NCBI RefSeq assembly: GCF_030145185.1
Contig: NZ_JAQYWB010000060.1
Location: 1-35,737, forward strand
Source: Desulfoluna sp.
Lineage (GTDB): Bacteria; Desulfobacterota; Desulfobacteria; Desulfobacterales; Desulfolunaceae
Direction of reading: 5' to 3'
Length of the DNA stretch: 35,737 bases
The notes under the pieces: model-generated
Told to the model about the DNA's origin: nothing
Databases searched by the model: none
Seen by the model: the letters and a program-made list of their open reading frames with translations, nothing else
Part shown: positions 4,493 through 29,518 of the stretch, one piece after another
Position numbering within the stretch: the stretch's first letter is position 1
How the letters are laid out: every line of letters starts with the position of its first letter
Position numbers and translations under genes: made by a program

Positions 4493-5515
4493 ATGAAAAA
4501 AAAAGTGATTATTGACACGGACATGGGGTGGGACGATATTCTTTCCATCCTTTATTTAATCAAACACCCCGGAATCGATATTCTGGGTATCACCGTTACG
4601 GGCTGCGGAGAAACCGACCTGCGCTGGGGCCTGGTGATCGCCCAAACCCTGATGGAGCTGGGACATCAGACGCAGGCGCGAATCTGTGCTGGAGCCCCCT
4701 CGCCCCTGAAATTTACGCACCGGTTCCCCCAGCCCTTTAAGAATGAGATGAACGACATCATGGGACTCCTCGGGACGTTGAACCCGCCCCTCTCCCTACC
4801 CGTGGACGAACGCTCCGCCTGGGAATTCATGGCGCAGACCCTCGACGAAACGCATGATAAAATCACCTTCCTCTCCCTCGGCGGGTTCACCAATATCGCC
4901 AGACTGCTTGAGATCTCGCCATCACCCCGCATCGAAAACATCTCAGAAATTGTGGCCATGGCGGGAGCTGTCTATGTGGACGGCAACGTGGCGCTCCTGA
5001 ACAACGCCCGGACAGAATGGGACCAGGGGCCGATCTACAGCACCAATACTGCCGCGGAATGGAACGTCTTTGTGGATCCCCTGGCCGCCAAATGCATCTG
5101 CGACTCTGAGATCCCTCTGACCCTGGTGCCCCTCGATGCCTGCAACCATGTCATGCTGAGTCCCGACTACGCCACGGCACTCACCGCCACAGACCCTTTG
5201 GCTACCCTGGCAAAAAATATCTTCCAAAAAAAATCCGGAAGCCACAACGAAGGCATCCCCGTACCCATTTTCGATCCCCTGGCCACCCTGATCATGGCCG
5301 GGGAGATGCCGGGATACCACGCGATCCAGACGTACCTGGATGTGGACCTCAGGGAATCGAGCACAGACAACCCCTGCGGAAAAACCCGGGTTGCAGACTC
5401 TGGGTCCCGAGAAATCACCGTTGTACACGGGGTCTCCCAGCGCCAATTCGCAGACGGTTTCACCCAAATCATGAACCGCTGCATACCAAAAGAGAGGCCT
5501 CCGGAGGCAAGGTGA
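4493..5515 (+). CDS. Inosine/uridine-preferring nucleoside hydrolase family protein
   Basis: A 340-aa protein of the nucleoside N-ribohydrolase (IunH) family, which splits nucleosides into base and ribose using a Ca2+ ion held by N-terminal aspartates. The signature is present: VIIDTDMGWDDILSI, with Asp8, Asp10, Asp14 and Asp15. A later PIFDPLATLIMAG segment carries the aspartate expected near the C-terminal active-site region. Length matches the family (310-340 aa). The start has GGAGGG at good spacing. The last residues (RPPEAR) are encoded inside a REP-like palindrome at about 5496-5525, so the natural C-terminus may have been replaced. Likely cytosolic and used for nucleoside salvage; base preference cannot be read from sequence. 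Confidence 0.9.
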   Translation: MKKKVIIDTDMGWDDILSILYLIKHPGIDILGITVTGCGETDLRWGLVIAQTLMELGHQTQARICAGAPSPLKFTHRFPQPFKNEMNDIMGLLGTLNPPLSLPVDERSAWEFMAQTLDETHDKITFLSLGGFTNIARLLEISPSPRIENISEIVAMAGAVYVDGNVALLNNARTEWDQGPIYSTNTAAEWNVFVDPLAAKCICDSEIPLTLVPLDACNHVMLSPDYATALTATDPLATLAKNIFQKKSGSHNEGIPVPIFDPLATLIMAGEMPGYHAIQTYLDVDLRESSTDNPCGKTRVADSGSREITVVHGVSQRQFADGFTQIMNRCIPKERPPEAR

Positions 5516-5602: not shown

Positions 5603-5631
5603 TTGACAGCGCTCCTCAATCCACGTAAAAA
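5603..5631 (+). promoter_or_regulatory. Sigma-70 promoter of the alanine leader and aminotransferase
   Basis: TTGACA (5603-5608), a 17-bp spacer and TAAAAA (5626-5631) form a good promoter. The predicted transcription start is near 5638, about 25 bases before the leader-peptide start codon. Confidence 0.7.
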
Positions 5632-5661
5632 GTGTAAAAAATGATCTTAACAGGATACCAA

Positions 5662-5736
5662 ATGAATCACGCATGCCACATATTGGCGGCGGCAGCGGCC
5701 ATGGGGTCAACCCATTGTCGTTTCCCTGCCCTCTGA
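5662..5736 (+). CDS. Alanine-rich attenuator leader peptide
   Basis: A 24-codon ORF preceded by AGGA six bases before the ATG. Codons 9-13 are five consecutive alanine codons (GCG GCG GCA GCG GCC, 5686-5700), and alanines also occur at positions 4 and 23, so 7 of 24 residues are Ala. It begins MNHACHIL, then the Ala run, then MGSTHCRFPAL and TGA. It sits between a good promoter and a strong intrinsic terminator located before an aminotransferase gene. That is the arrangement of classical leader peptides (his, thr, leu), where ribosome stalling at codons of the end-product amino acid controls termination. Here it would sense charged tRNA-Ala. The layout is seen directly; the regulation is inference. 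Confidence 0.8.
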   Translation: MNHACHILAAAAAMGSTHCRFPAL

Positions 5737-5796
5737 ATAGACAGACTGCAGTAAGAACGCCATGGGTTGACGACGACATCCCATGGCTTTTTTTTT
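5701..5796 (+). terminator. Attenuator: intrinsic terminator with competing antiterminator
   Basis: The terminator stem is GCCATGGG (5759-5766) with CCCATGGC (5780-5787), followed by nine T residues (5788-5796). The upstream arm overlaps ATGGGTTGAC (5762-5771), which is perfectly complementary over 10 bases to GTCAACCCAT (5706-5715) near the end of the leader ORF, giving a mutually exclusive antiterminator. A third hairpin, ATGGG (5701-5705) with CCCAT (5711-5715), could sequester the antiterminator arm once the ribosome has passed. With the Ala-codon run just upstream at 5686-5700, these elements fit transcription attenuation. The exact ribosome footprint logic is not proven by sequence. Confidence 0.82.
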
Positions 5797-5874
5797 GCCT
5801 CGGGTTGTCCCCGGGTCCCCGCCCCGAAACGTCTCCCGGAAGCCTTCTTACCCAAAAAAAACTGGAGGCACCAC

Positions 5875-7068
5875 ATGACAGAAGAACCCATTATCCGATA
5901 CTCTGAGCGAATGAACCACCTGCCCTCGTATCTCTTTGGCCTGATCAACAAAAGAAAAATGGAGATGCGCCGAAAAGGCCTGGATGTCATTGACCTCGGC
6001 ATGGGCAACCCTGTGGACCCGGCACCGGACAAAGTGACGGAGATGCTCTGCAAAGTGGCCCAGGACCCTAAGAGCCATCGATACCCCGTGGCCGGTGGCA
6101 TGAAGCACCTCAAGCAGGAGCTGGCCCTGATGTACGACCGGGATTATGGCGTTAACCTGGACCCCGATTCTGAAGTCATCACCACCATCGGTTCCAAGGA
6201 GGGGGTCTCCCACCTCTGCCTGGCCCTCATGGGCCCGGGAGACACGGTCATGGTCCCCACCCCGGCCTTTCCAGTCCATATCTACGCAGCCATCATCGCC
6301 GGGGCCAACGTTTTGCAGTTTCCCATGGCAGACGATGAGACCATGCTCAAGCAGATTGTCGGGCTCTGTGAATCCATGTACCCCACGCCCAAAATGCTGC
6401 TCCTCAACTATCCCCACAACCCCACGGGCCAGGTGACCAATGTCGATTTTTTCAAAGAGGTGGTGAAACTCGCGAAAAAATACCGCTTCATGGTGGTCCA
6501 GGATTTCGCCTATTCCCGCATCACCTACGACGGCTACAAAGCTCCCAGCTTCTTCGAAGTCCCCGGTGCCAAAGACGTGGGCGTGGAATTCGGGTCGTTC
6601 TCCAAGACTTACAACATGGCTGGCTGGCGCATGGGGTACTGCGTGGGCAACGCCGAGATGATCAAGGGCCTTGAAAAAATCAAAGGCTACTACGACTACG
6701 GCATCTTCACCGCCATTCAGGCGGCAGGGATCGTGGCCCTTCGCGACTGCGAATCCAACATCACCGAACAGGTTCAAATCTACGAAAAACGGCGAAACAC
6801 CATGTGTGACATCCTCCGGCGCATGGACTGGGAGGTGGACGCCCCCAAGGCGGGCATGTTTGTCTGGATCAAGATCCCCGACCGCTACAAAAACAGCCAC
6901 GACTCCATGGCCTTTGCCCTGGAGCTTATGGAAAAAGCCAACGTGGCCGTCGCCCCCGGCGCCGGGTTCAGCAAAGAAGGCGAAGGCTACCTGCGCCTCG
7001 CCCTTGTGGAAAACGAAGAGCGCATTCGCCAGGCCCTGAGGCAAATTCGCCAGGCGGAGATTGATTAA
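5875..7068 (+). CDS. alaC: Alanine-type class I aminotransferase (AlaC-like)
   Basis: A 397-aa fold-type I PLP aminotransferase related to AlaC (glutamate-pyruvate aminotransferase) and LL-diaminopimelate/aspartate aminotransferases. Visible landmarks are DLGMGNPVDPAPDKV (about 37-51), NPTGQV with Asn182, and the PLP lysine in FGSFSKTYNMAGWRMGY (Lys244). The frame is open further upstream to 5767, but the ATG at 5875 has GGAGG eight bases before it, starts the conserved sequence, and keeps the attenuator outside the coding region. It would make alanine from pyruvate and glutamate in the cytosol. The alanine-codon leader upstream independently supports alanine as the product. Transcription is probably controlled by attenuation and ends at the hairpin at 7075-7104. 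LL-DAP aminotransferase activity remains possible. Confidence 0.85.
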   Translation: MTEEPIIRYSERMNHLPSYLFGLINKRKMEMRRKGLDVIDLGMGNPVDPAPDKVTEMLCKVAQDPKSHRYPVAGGMKHLKQELALMYDRDYGVNLDPDSEVITTIGSKEGVSHLCLALMGPGDTVMVPTPAFPVHIYAAIIAGANVLQFPMADDETMLKQIVGLCESMYPTPKMLLLNYPHNPTGQVTNVDFFKEVVKLAKKYRFMVVQDFAYSRITYDGYKAPSFFEVPGAKDVGVEFGSFSKTYNMAGWRMGYCVGNAEMIKGLEKIKGYYDYGIFTAIQAAGIVALRDCESNITEQVQIYEKRRNTMCDILRRMDWEVDAPKAGMFVWIKIPDRYKNSHDSMAFALELMEKANVAVAPGAGFSKEGEGYLRLALVENEERIRQALRQIRQAEID

Positions 7069-7104
7069 AAAAATGGCCTCCGGCAGAGCTGCCGGAGGCC
7101 ACTT
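7067..7104. terminator. Bidirectional intrinsic terminator
   Basis: A perfect 11-bp stem GGCCTCCGGCA/TGCCGGAGGCC (7075-7085 and 7090-7100) with a GAGC loop is followed by acTTTT and preceded by a run of A residues, so it can act on both strands. It lies between the convergent aminotransferase and ABC permease genes. The CCTCCGGC core resembles the local REP-like family. Confidence 0.85.
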
Positions 7105-29313: not shown

Positions 29314-29351
29314 GTTGCAGAGCCATCAATAAAAGGGGTGGGATGGCGGAA

Positions 29352-29447
29352 TCCAGTTCCCTACGCCGGAATTAACCGGATCAGGTTCAACGGGTATCAT
29401 CTCAGGCTGCCGTCAACGCATCAAGCGCCCGGGCAGCCACCCCACGG
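29352..29447 (-). promoter_or_regulatory. TPP riboswitch (THI element)
   Basis: Reading the minus strand, the conserved blocks occur in order: GGGGTGGCTGCC, then CTGAGATGATACCC, GTTGAACCTGATCCGG and CGTAGGGAACTGG. These match the TPP aptamer (CUGAGA, ACCCUUGAACCUGAUCUGG, GCGUAGGGAA). TPP binding normally blocks expression of thiamine uptake or synthesis genes. Here it precedes thiBPQ, so intake should fall when TPP is plentiful. Confidence 0.95.
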
Positions 29448-29518
29448 TTCCAGTTCTGAAAAAGCCGGGGAGCGGATATCCTGTCCGAATCGCCGGGTGT
29501 TTTTCAGTCACTGGCTCT

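Follow-up and report, generated by a model that had tools for sequence, protein, structure and literature searches.

Attenuators for several other amino acids are classical. In the trpL type of Escherichia coli, codons for the product of the pathway stand in a row within a leader open reading frame (ORF), where the translating ribosome monitors them, and a 2:3 antiterminator competes with a 3:4 terminator. In the his leader of enterobacteria, six segments (A–F) pair as B:C and D:E in the on state and as C:D and E:F in the off state, and only E:F bears a T tract. The alanine T-box riboswitches of Firmicutes sense uncharged tRNA-Ala and have no leader peptide. To our knowledge, alanine is usually missing when the amino acids that leader-peptide attenuation can sense are listed. 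Here, we describe the leader region of an AlaC-like aminotransferase gene in a 35,737-nucleotide stretch of DNA from Desulfoluna sp. (the window, which is the whole of contig NZ_JAQYWB010000060.1). The evidence from related loci leads us to propose, with high confidence, that transcription of the aminotransferase gene is controlled here by ribosome-mediated attenuation, with charged tRNA-Ala as the signal sensed.

The original prediction, made from the letters of this DNA, knew of no described alanine leader peptide. Alanine has, however, been tied to leader ORFs before, in AlaL before alaS and in the upstream ORF (uORF) of whiB7 (PMC8079986, PMC13236596). AlaL is a proposed alanine leader peptide in Streptomyces lividans, reported as new in the accessible text of that paper, and has six alanines, three of them scattered (PMC8079986). 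In mycobacteria, according to the accessible text on whiB7, ribosome stalling in the uORF induces transcription, and the regulon includes the alanine gene aspC (PMC13236596). The available description of the uORFC-8-2 motif before cysS in Rhodobacterales, which was found comparatively, gives a leader ORF with conserved Cys control codons (PMC8632094). In the accessible portion of Naville and Gautheret (2010), no mention of 'alanine' was found. The open-access literature that we searched yielded no Ala leader before an aminotransferase gene or in Desulfobacterota, no Ala-run leader before an alanine biosynthetic gene, and no report that joins tandem terminators, an attenuator, and a leader peptide. 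We regard the present element as a putative leader-peptide attenuator whose specificity is new for a biosynthetic gene, with an extra coupled terminator.

The locus occupies 5603–7101 on the forward strand of the window (contig C139 in our set), and the nearest relatives of the genome are Desulfoluna. A promoter-like site, TTGACA at 5603–5608 and TAAAAA at 5626–5631 with a 17-nt spacer, is followed by AGGA at 5652–5655 as a ribosome-binding site and by the leader ORF (MNHACHILAAAAAMGSTHCRFPAL, 24 codons and a stop, 5662–5736), which has counterparts in relatives. Codons 9–13 (GCG GCG GCA GCG GCC, 5686–5700) are five consecutive Ala codons, the proposed sensor, and are referred to as strand 1. 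Strand 2 is the core of the 5' strand of the antiterminator (GTCAACCCAT, 5706–5715), a perfect complement of strand 3 (ATGGGTTGAC, 5762–5771), which is common to the antiterminator and to the first terminator hairpin, T1 (5758–5787). The 3' arm of T1 is strand 4 (5775–5787), and a terminated leader RNA should end in the nine T residues at 5788–5796. The promoter, the leader ORF with its ribosome-binding site and Ala codons, and the terminator with nine T residues had been named in the original prediction, and each is found at the stated position on direct reading of the sequence, as is the 10-base pairing of 5706–5715 with 5762–5771 that would exclude T1. That anatomy was incomplete, because a second hairpin, T2 (5798–5815), also belongs to it. 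The 5' arm of T2 is strand 5 (5797–5809), whose complementarity to strand 4 is interrupted in this genome, the 3' arm is strand 6, and a T-rich tail is absent. Both hairpins were located by inspection and covariation, strands 2 to 5 were assigned by covariation and by comparison of cognate with swapped partners, and folding bears on strands 4 and 5 as well. None of 200 dinucleotide shuffles of the Desulfoluna leader RNA folds as stably as the real sequence (z = −4.1), and the minimum-energy fold of the RNA from 5702 onward combines 2:3 with 4:5. The promoter is absent from the output of a simple promoter scan because TAAAAA breaks the scan rule at position 6.

The controlled gene (5875–7068) was identified as a class I aminotransferase of the AlaC type from its ORF, its family profile, and a structure match. 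The best NCBIfam model is alanine transaminase, with LL-diaminopimelate aminotransferases next, and none of the 25 models listed reaches its cut-off; a comparison with solved structures ranks 2x5d, a probable aminotransferase, first. A separate LL-diaminopimelate aminotransferase in the same genome scores above its cut-off (596 versus 365). These family matches, together with the separate LL-diaminopimelate enzyme, make alanine formation of the glutamate–pyruvate type the likeliest role. The Ala leader supports this assignment, as had been suggested when the leader was first noticed.

Upstream regions of orthologues were compared across the class and the phylum. Among 389 genomes of the class, 116 matched the aminotransferase at an expectation value (E) ≤ 1e-140, and G005, from a separate search, brought the orthologue genomes to 117, of which the upstream DNA of 111 was examined. 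Those left out were G119, G189, G227, and G359, which begin less than 70 bases from a contig end, G269, with at most 35 bases upstream, and G362. Of the 111 regions, 37 contain a small ORF with four or more Ala codons in a row, and the next residue in the same count, F, reaches 7. Shuffled upstream regions gave such Ala-run ORFs in 0 of 111, and chance Ala runs were rejected on this count. Ala runs are found on the reverse strand in 24 of 111, but that strand is not an independent control, because GCCGCGGCC-type runs encode Ala on both strands. The complete element, leader, T1, and T2, precedes 40 of the 111 orthologues, three loci with short runs included.

The distribution of the element follows family lines. 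In family f12, the full element is found in 0 of 63 upstream regions (0 of 64 with G362, whose upstream DNA, inspected separately, has no Ala run), and the aminotransferase is retained; the other families, pooled, have it in 40 of 48. Two of the eight pooled misses have the leader farther upstream. In G342, it lies 439 nt ahead of the aminotransferase ORF, and in G212 (L276), a gene with resolvase and MerR domains, which we take to be IS607-like, stands between the Ala attenuator and the aminotransferase and probably uncouples them. The six remaining misses are L100, L103, L163, L175, L190, and L198. A search of 395 genomes across the phylum gave 10 orthologues, and all eight of those outside the class carry the leader, T1, and T2. 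A search for Ala-run leader ORFs before orthologues had been suggested as a check, and its outcome is favorable, for the run, its spacing, and the stems are kept, with covariation, from Desulfoluna to orthologues with about 62–69% protein identity in other families and in another class. The proposal thereby also withstood the refuting condition set for it at the outset, a lack of conservation of the Ala run or of the competing stems in close relatives. Upstream of enzymes of the same family in other phyla, Ala runs occur in 2 of 67 regions (Pro runs 11, Arg runs 3), and none of 72 loci there gave a match below E = 0.08 to a covariance model of the element. The attenuator therefore looks confined to Desulfobacterota, within the range searched.

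For closer comparison, 48 loci were aligned, the presence of T1 and T2 being required for entry; L099, L182, and L183, which have both hairpins and fewer than four consecutive Ala codons, were added by eye. Since the 48 loci represent 19 related lineages, the permutation and shuffle counts given below are not strict probabilities, and the hairpin borders were placed by hand ahead of the permutation tests. At least four consecutive in-frame Ala codons are present in 45 of the 48 leaders, with runs of 4–6 that use all four Ala codons. In the runs of four or more, all 226 codons start with GC, and the third position is free (C 105, G 81, A 27, T 13). The run begins 6–9 codons from the start, which was picked by its Shine–Dalgarno (SD) match, in 44 of 48. 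Upstream, 45 leaders have a promoter-like site matching at least 9 of 12 positions, where 8.9 are expected in shuffles, and TTGAC precedes 46, where 6.8 are expected. An in-frame start is present in all 48, an SD-like word of at least four bases in 34, and the stop lies at least 30 nt beyond the Ala run in 36 (33 nt in the Desulfoluna window). The peptide before and after the run varies between lineages. The leader is a short ORF with a start, an SD word, and a stop, placed after a promoter, and it is predicted to be translated.

The second hairpin lies 6–13 nt 3' of T1 in the aligned loci, all of which had T2 as an entry condition. Its 5' arm, strand 5, is complementary to strand 4, with compensatory changes: strands 4 and 5 read GACAATCC and GGATTGTC in L012, GACAACCC and GGGTTGTC in L011, and TCTGGCTCA and TGAGTCAGA in L205. 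Strand 2 begins to pair with strand 3 1–14 nt past the Ala run (mean of lineage means, 7). Cognate duplexes are more stable on average than those with partners swapped among the 19 lineages, at −19.4 versus −16.0 kcal/mol for 2:3, −21.6 versus −18.5 for 3:4, and −17.2 versus −14.0 for 4:5, and in each case none of 1000 permutations matches the cognate mean. In the MAFFT alignment, in which six g53 loci are misaligned in T1, the paired cells of 2:3, 3:4, 4:5, and 5:6 amount to 75, 80, 84, and 83%, and with one strand slid, they amount to at most 43, 43, 55, and 58%. Cells with a double change exceed 500 of 500 shuffles for 2:3, 4:5, and 5:6, and 493 of 500 for 3:4. A test of the stems for covariation had been proposed, and these comparisons speak for covarying stems; other measures of covariation, which are taken up below, do not rise above shuffles. 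The sequences thus contain a predicted 2:3 antiterminator and a predicted 3:4 terminator that are mutually exclusive, although not every measure of covariation exceeds its shuffles. The whole looks like a six-strand switch, with T1 and T2 formed in the off state and 2:3 and 4:5 in the on state.

Which hairpin bears the T tract differs among the loci. With a tail defined as at least six T in ten bases, T1 alone has one in 8 loci, T2 alone in 17, both in 23, and neither in 0, and an unbroken stretch of at least four T follows T1 in 29 and T2 in 31. In all six Desulfoluna loci, T2 is without a T-rich tail, and only T1 has one. T2 nevertheless persists there as a hairpin, and its pairing with strand 4 is for the most part retained, although it is weak in L013. 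It is less likely than not, in our judgment, that the leader works as proposed while only one of the terminators matters, the 4:5 complementarity being a relic of a T2 copied from T1. The 5' arms of T2 do look like those of T1, T2 still forms at equilibrium with a stalled ribosome in most lineages, and the Desulfoluna tails point the same way, as does the tally of doubly changed 4:5 pairs, which 57 of 500 shuffles reach. However, 4:5 has 51 double-change cells where shuffles have 22, and none of the 500 is as high. An uninterrupted stretch of nine pairs opens 4:5 in L200, L204, and L205, a compensatory change between L012 and L011 keeps it within Desulfoluna, and nearly half of the loci have T-rich tails on both hairpins.

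The proposed mechanism of the alanine attenuator is as follows. RNA polymerase would start at about 5635–5640, as judged from the promoter, and the leader ORF would be made with its Ala codons about eight codons after the start. When Ala-tRNA is ample, the ribosome would pass the Ala codons and strand 2 as strands 3 and 4 are being made, so that T1 (3:4) and then T2 (5:6) would form. Transcription would halt at whichever hairpin bears a T tract, which is T1 in Desulfoluna and T2 or both in most other loci. When Ala-tRNA is scarce, the ribosome would wait on the Ala codons, and the exposed strand 2 would pair with strand 3. Strand 4, freed by this pairing, would pair with strand 5, neither terminator would form, and the gene would be transcribed. 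In Desulfoluna, and wherever else T2 lacks a T tract, 4:5 would still keep strand 4 from strand 3. The ORF, its Ala run, the strands, their conservation and covariation, and their association with the gene can be read from the sequences, and from these we infer the ribosome stalling, termination, readthrough, and alanine signal of this scheme.

Folding calculations agree with parts of this mechanism. Before strand 4 is made, the normalized expected 2:3 pairing is 0.98 with a ribosome stalled on the first Ala codon and 0.63 in ribosome-free RNA (lineage means; single values can exceed 1, and the ribosome-free value is very uneven among lineages). With one leader taken per lineage and the ribosome stalled, real leaders have a probability of T1, P(T1), of 0.58, which shuffling of strand 2 raises to 0.93; the real leader has the lower value in 14 of 19 lineages. 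For the Desulfoluna window at equilibrium, P(T1) is 1.00 with the ribosome at the stop codon, 0.07 with it stalled, and 0.00 without a ribosome. At equilibrium, RNA that ends at T1 often re-forms T1 even when the ribosome is stalled, and the switch would therefore depend on 2:3 being the first to form. In other attenuators too, the antiterminator is thought to win by forming first.

Several results weigh against this interpretation. At equilibrium, the lineage-mean P(T1) is 0.67 stalled, 0.63 ribosome-free, and 0.99 at the stop codon, and the corresponding values of P(T2) are 0.84, 0.93, and 0.95. The P(T1) of 0.00 for ribosome-free Desulfoluna RNA predicts that it is read through, unlike the trp paradigm. 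The occupancy of strand 3 before strand 4 is made, a cruder measure, is 0.84 stalled, 0.74 ribosome-free, and 0.44 at the stop codon, and by this modeled quantity, the stalled and ribosome-free states differ little. Because the stop lies at least 30 nt past the run in most leaders, a ribosome resting there would leave the core of strand 2 exposed, and a ribosome footprint is too short to cover all of strand 2 from the leader stop codon. Pairs with any double change are not clearly above shuffles in any of the four helices, the observed number being reached by 172, 287, 57, and 83 of 500 shuffles for 2:3, 3:4, 4:5, and 5:6. In the count of further pair types, 2:3 shows no excess, since 275 of 500 shuffles reach it, and 3:4 lies below its shuffles, 498 of 500 of which reach it. 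Three of the 48 loci have fewer than four consecutive Ala codons. As for the enzyme, its score is below the alanine-transaminase cut-off (476 versus 647 bits), and the same genome has an alanine dehydrogenase above its cut-off.

A covariance model built on the Ala region, T1, and T2, for which the Ala run is thus not a fully independent check, found one strong site in the Desulfoluna genome, the next being at E = 0.056. In 369 genomes of the class, it gave 42 full-length sites at E ≤ 1.2e-10, of which 38 had served in training. An in-frame Ala run is present in each of the remaining four, of five residues in G079, six in G342, six in G212, and three in G287. The site in G079 precedes an orthologue whose reading frame stops after 144 codons in that assembly. 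The site in G287 (L273, contig C115, reverse strand, about 140–320 in that orientation) has a leader with AMAAA and T1 and T2 before a gene for an EamA-family transporter, which is a candidate alanine transporter. The aminotransferase frame of G287 contains a stop.

In the phylum scan, all 10 full-length sites below E = 1e-9 are leaders of orthologues. Among 16 weaker matches that were inspected, 14 have hairpins in tandem, and in many of these a leader peptide can be seen; L224 and L229, which did not clearly fit this pattern, were excluded. Leaders with a Trp run and the double hairpin are L223, L227, L230, L231, L234, and L274. The genes after L223 and L230, which were tested, are TrpB-like, the gene after L274 is presumably anthranilate-synthase-like, and a WWW leader in G223 precedes a gene that we take to resemble anthranilate synthase. 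Leaders rich in Tyr, Phe, or Trp with the double hairpin are L226, L232, L233, L235, L239, L277, and L278, some of them by eye only, and where tested, they precede genes for ADH synthase (L232) and DAHP synthase (L233 and L239). The genes after L222, L226, and L235 gave no family match at E = 1e-40. Several of the Trp and aromatic leader ORFs were recognized by eye, the script having chosen other ORFs. The 3' arm of T1 pairs with the 5' arm of T2 in the 14 tandem pairs at −13.0 to −24.1 kcal/mol; these pairs were selected by the covariance model, and the energies stand without a swap control. Desulfobacterota may have a general design, described nowhere in the literature that we searched, in which two terminators, chained through 4:5, come after a leader peptide. 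Ala, Trp, or Tyr/Phe runs would plug into it for different pathways, with one or the other T tract kept per lineage. Its Ala version, with cognate Ala codons immediately before the gene of an alanine biosynthetic enzyme, may mark further alanine genes, among them that of the candidate transporter. We consider the chances of such a general design to be about even.

These leaders bear on whether the Ala-rich ORF could act through its nascent peptide, by an arrest like that of TnaC or SecM, or through some other translational signal, rather than through the supply of Ala-tRNA. Within a lineage, parts of the peptide outside the run resemble one another; RSTARAEGGE, for instance, recurs in several g41 loci. 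Between lineages, however, the peptides outside the run differ widely, the run itself keeps to 4–6 residues with every Ala codon in use, and the letters that are shared downstream fall on RNA strand 2. Furthermore, the same hairpins follow Trp-rich or Tyr/Phe-rich leaders ahead of Trp and aromatic genes, which is the pattern that tRNA sensing predicts, and an effect of the peptide itself or of another translational signal is very unlikely. It is even less probable that T1 and T2 simply terminate the upstream gene as an ordinary tandem pair and that the Ala ORF is a by-product of GC-rich DNA, since, although tandem terminators are common and GC-rich repeats yield Ala runs on both strands, the promoter, the frame, the 6–9 codon spacing, and the gene association are conserved, strand 2 covaries with strand 3, and the loci of other phyla that were searched have hardly any Ala runs and no match to the covariance model below E = 0.08. 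A T-box riboswitch was rejected as well, no T-box match being present in the window at Rfam gathering scores. At the same scores, the leaders of eight loci gave no Rfam match, the only hit being a tRNA elsewhere in L223.

The alanine attenuator appears to serve one gene, the aminotransferase, which is followed at 7074–7101 by a terminator-like site found by consensus scan only. Five tested genes downstream of the aminotransferase (nuclease-like, HD, solute-binding, and two without a family) show no sign of a shared operon. The upstream gene at 4493–5515 resembles, presumably, a nucleoside hydrolase, judged by motif, with no obvious relation to alanine. Elsewhere in the window, a thiamine pyrophosphate (TPP) riboswitch lies at 29341–29452 on the minus strand, above the Rfam gathering score, and is the sole match of the window at such scores.

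Many sulfate-reducing bacteria and their relatives thus appear, from the distribution of the leader, to switch on an alanine-making enzyme by means of an Ala-codon run that would sense a shortage of alanine. On this comparative evidence, alanine biosynthesis joins the list of pathways sensed by attenuation, in a family that crosses class borders. The coupled double terminator offers a testable answer to how one ribosome event can control two terminators in a row, for in the chained design, if it is true, a single event would open or close both. That it accompanies Ala, Trp, and aromatic leaders alike points to a modular regulator. The leader is also an aid to annotation, supporting alanine as the product of the aminotransferase and pointing to the EamA-type transporter as an alanine gene.

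Among the known systems, the alanine T-box would likewise respond to tRNA-Ala, but the present element has a leader peptide and no T-box match in the window at Rfam gathering scores. The uORFC-8-2 motif, as far as its available description goes, is alike in being a comparatively found leader ORF whose control codons are conserved and whose features resemble those of attenuation, and differs in its Cys codons, its occurrence in Rhodobacterales, and its aminoacyl-tRNA synthetase gene. The whiB7 uORF, compared by description only, shares the induction of transcription by ribosome stalling in a uORF that is proposed for the Ala leader; it controls a transcription factor, whereas the Ala leader precedes an enzyme gene, and the accessible description gives neither an Ala-codon run nor a second coupled hairpin. 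AlaL, likewise set beside our leader by description only, is a proposed alanine leader peptide too, but it controls alanyl-tRNA synthetase, and the accessible description is without competing stems or a comparative test. The trp-type leaders share the run of product codons and the 2:3 antiterminator opposed to a 3:4 terminator; the Ala leader differs in sensing, as proposed, alanine, in serving a single aminotransferase gene, in having a second coupled hairpin, and, in most cases, in a leader stop farther from strand 2. The his leader shares the alternating chain of six segments, 2:3 and 4:5 against 3:4 and 5:6, whereas the Ala leaders carry the T tract on T1, T2, or both and stand before a different target gene.

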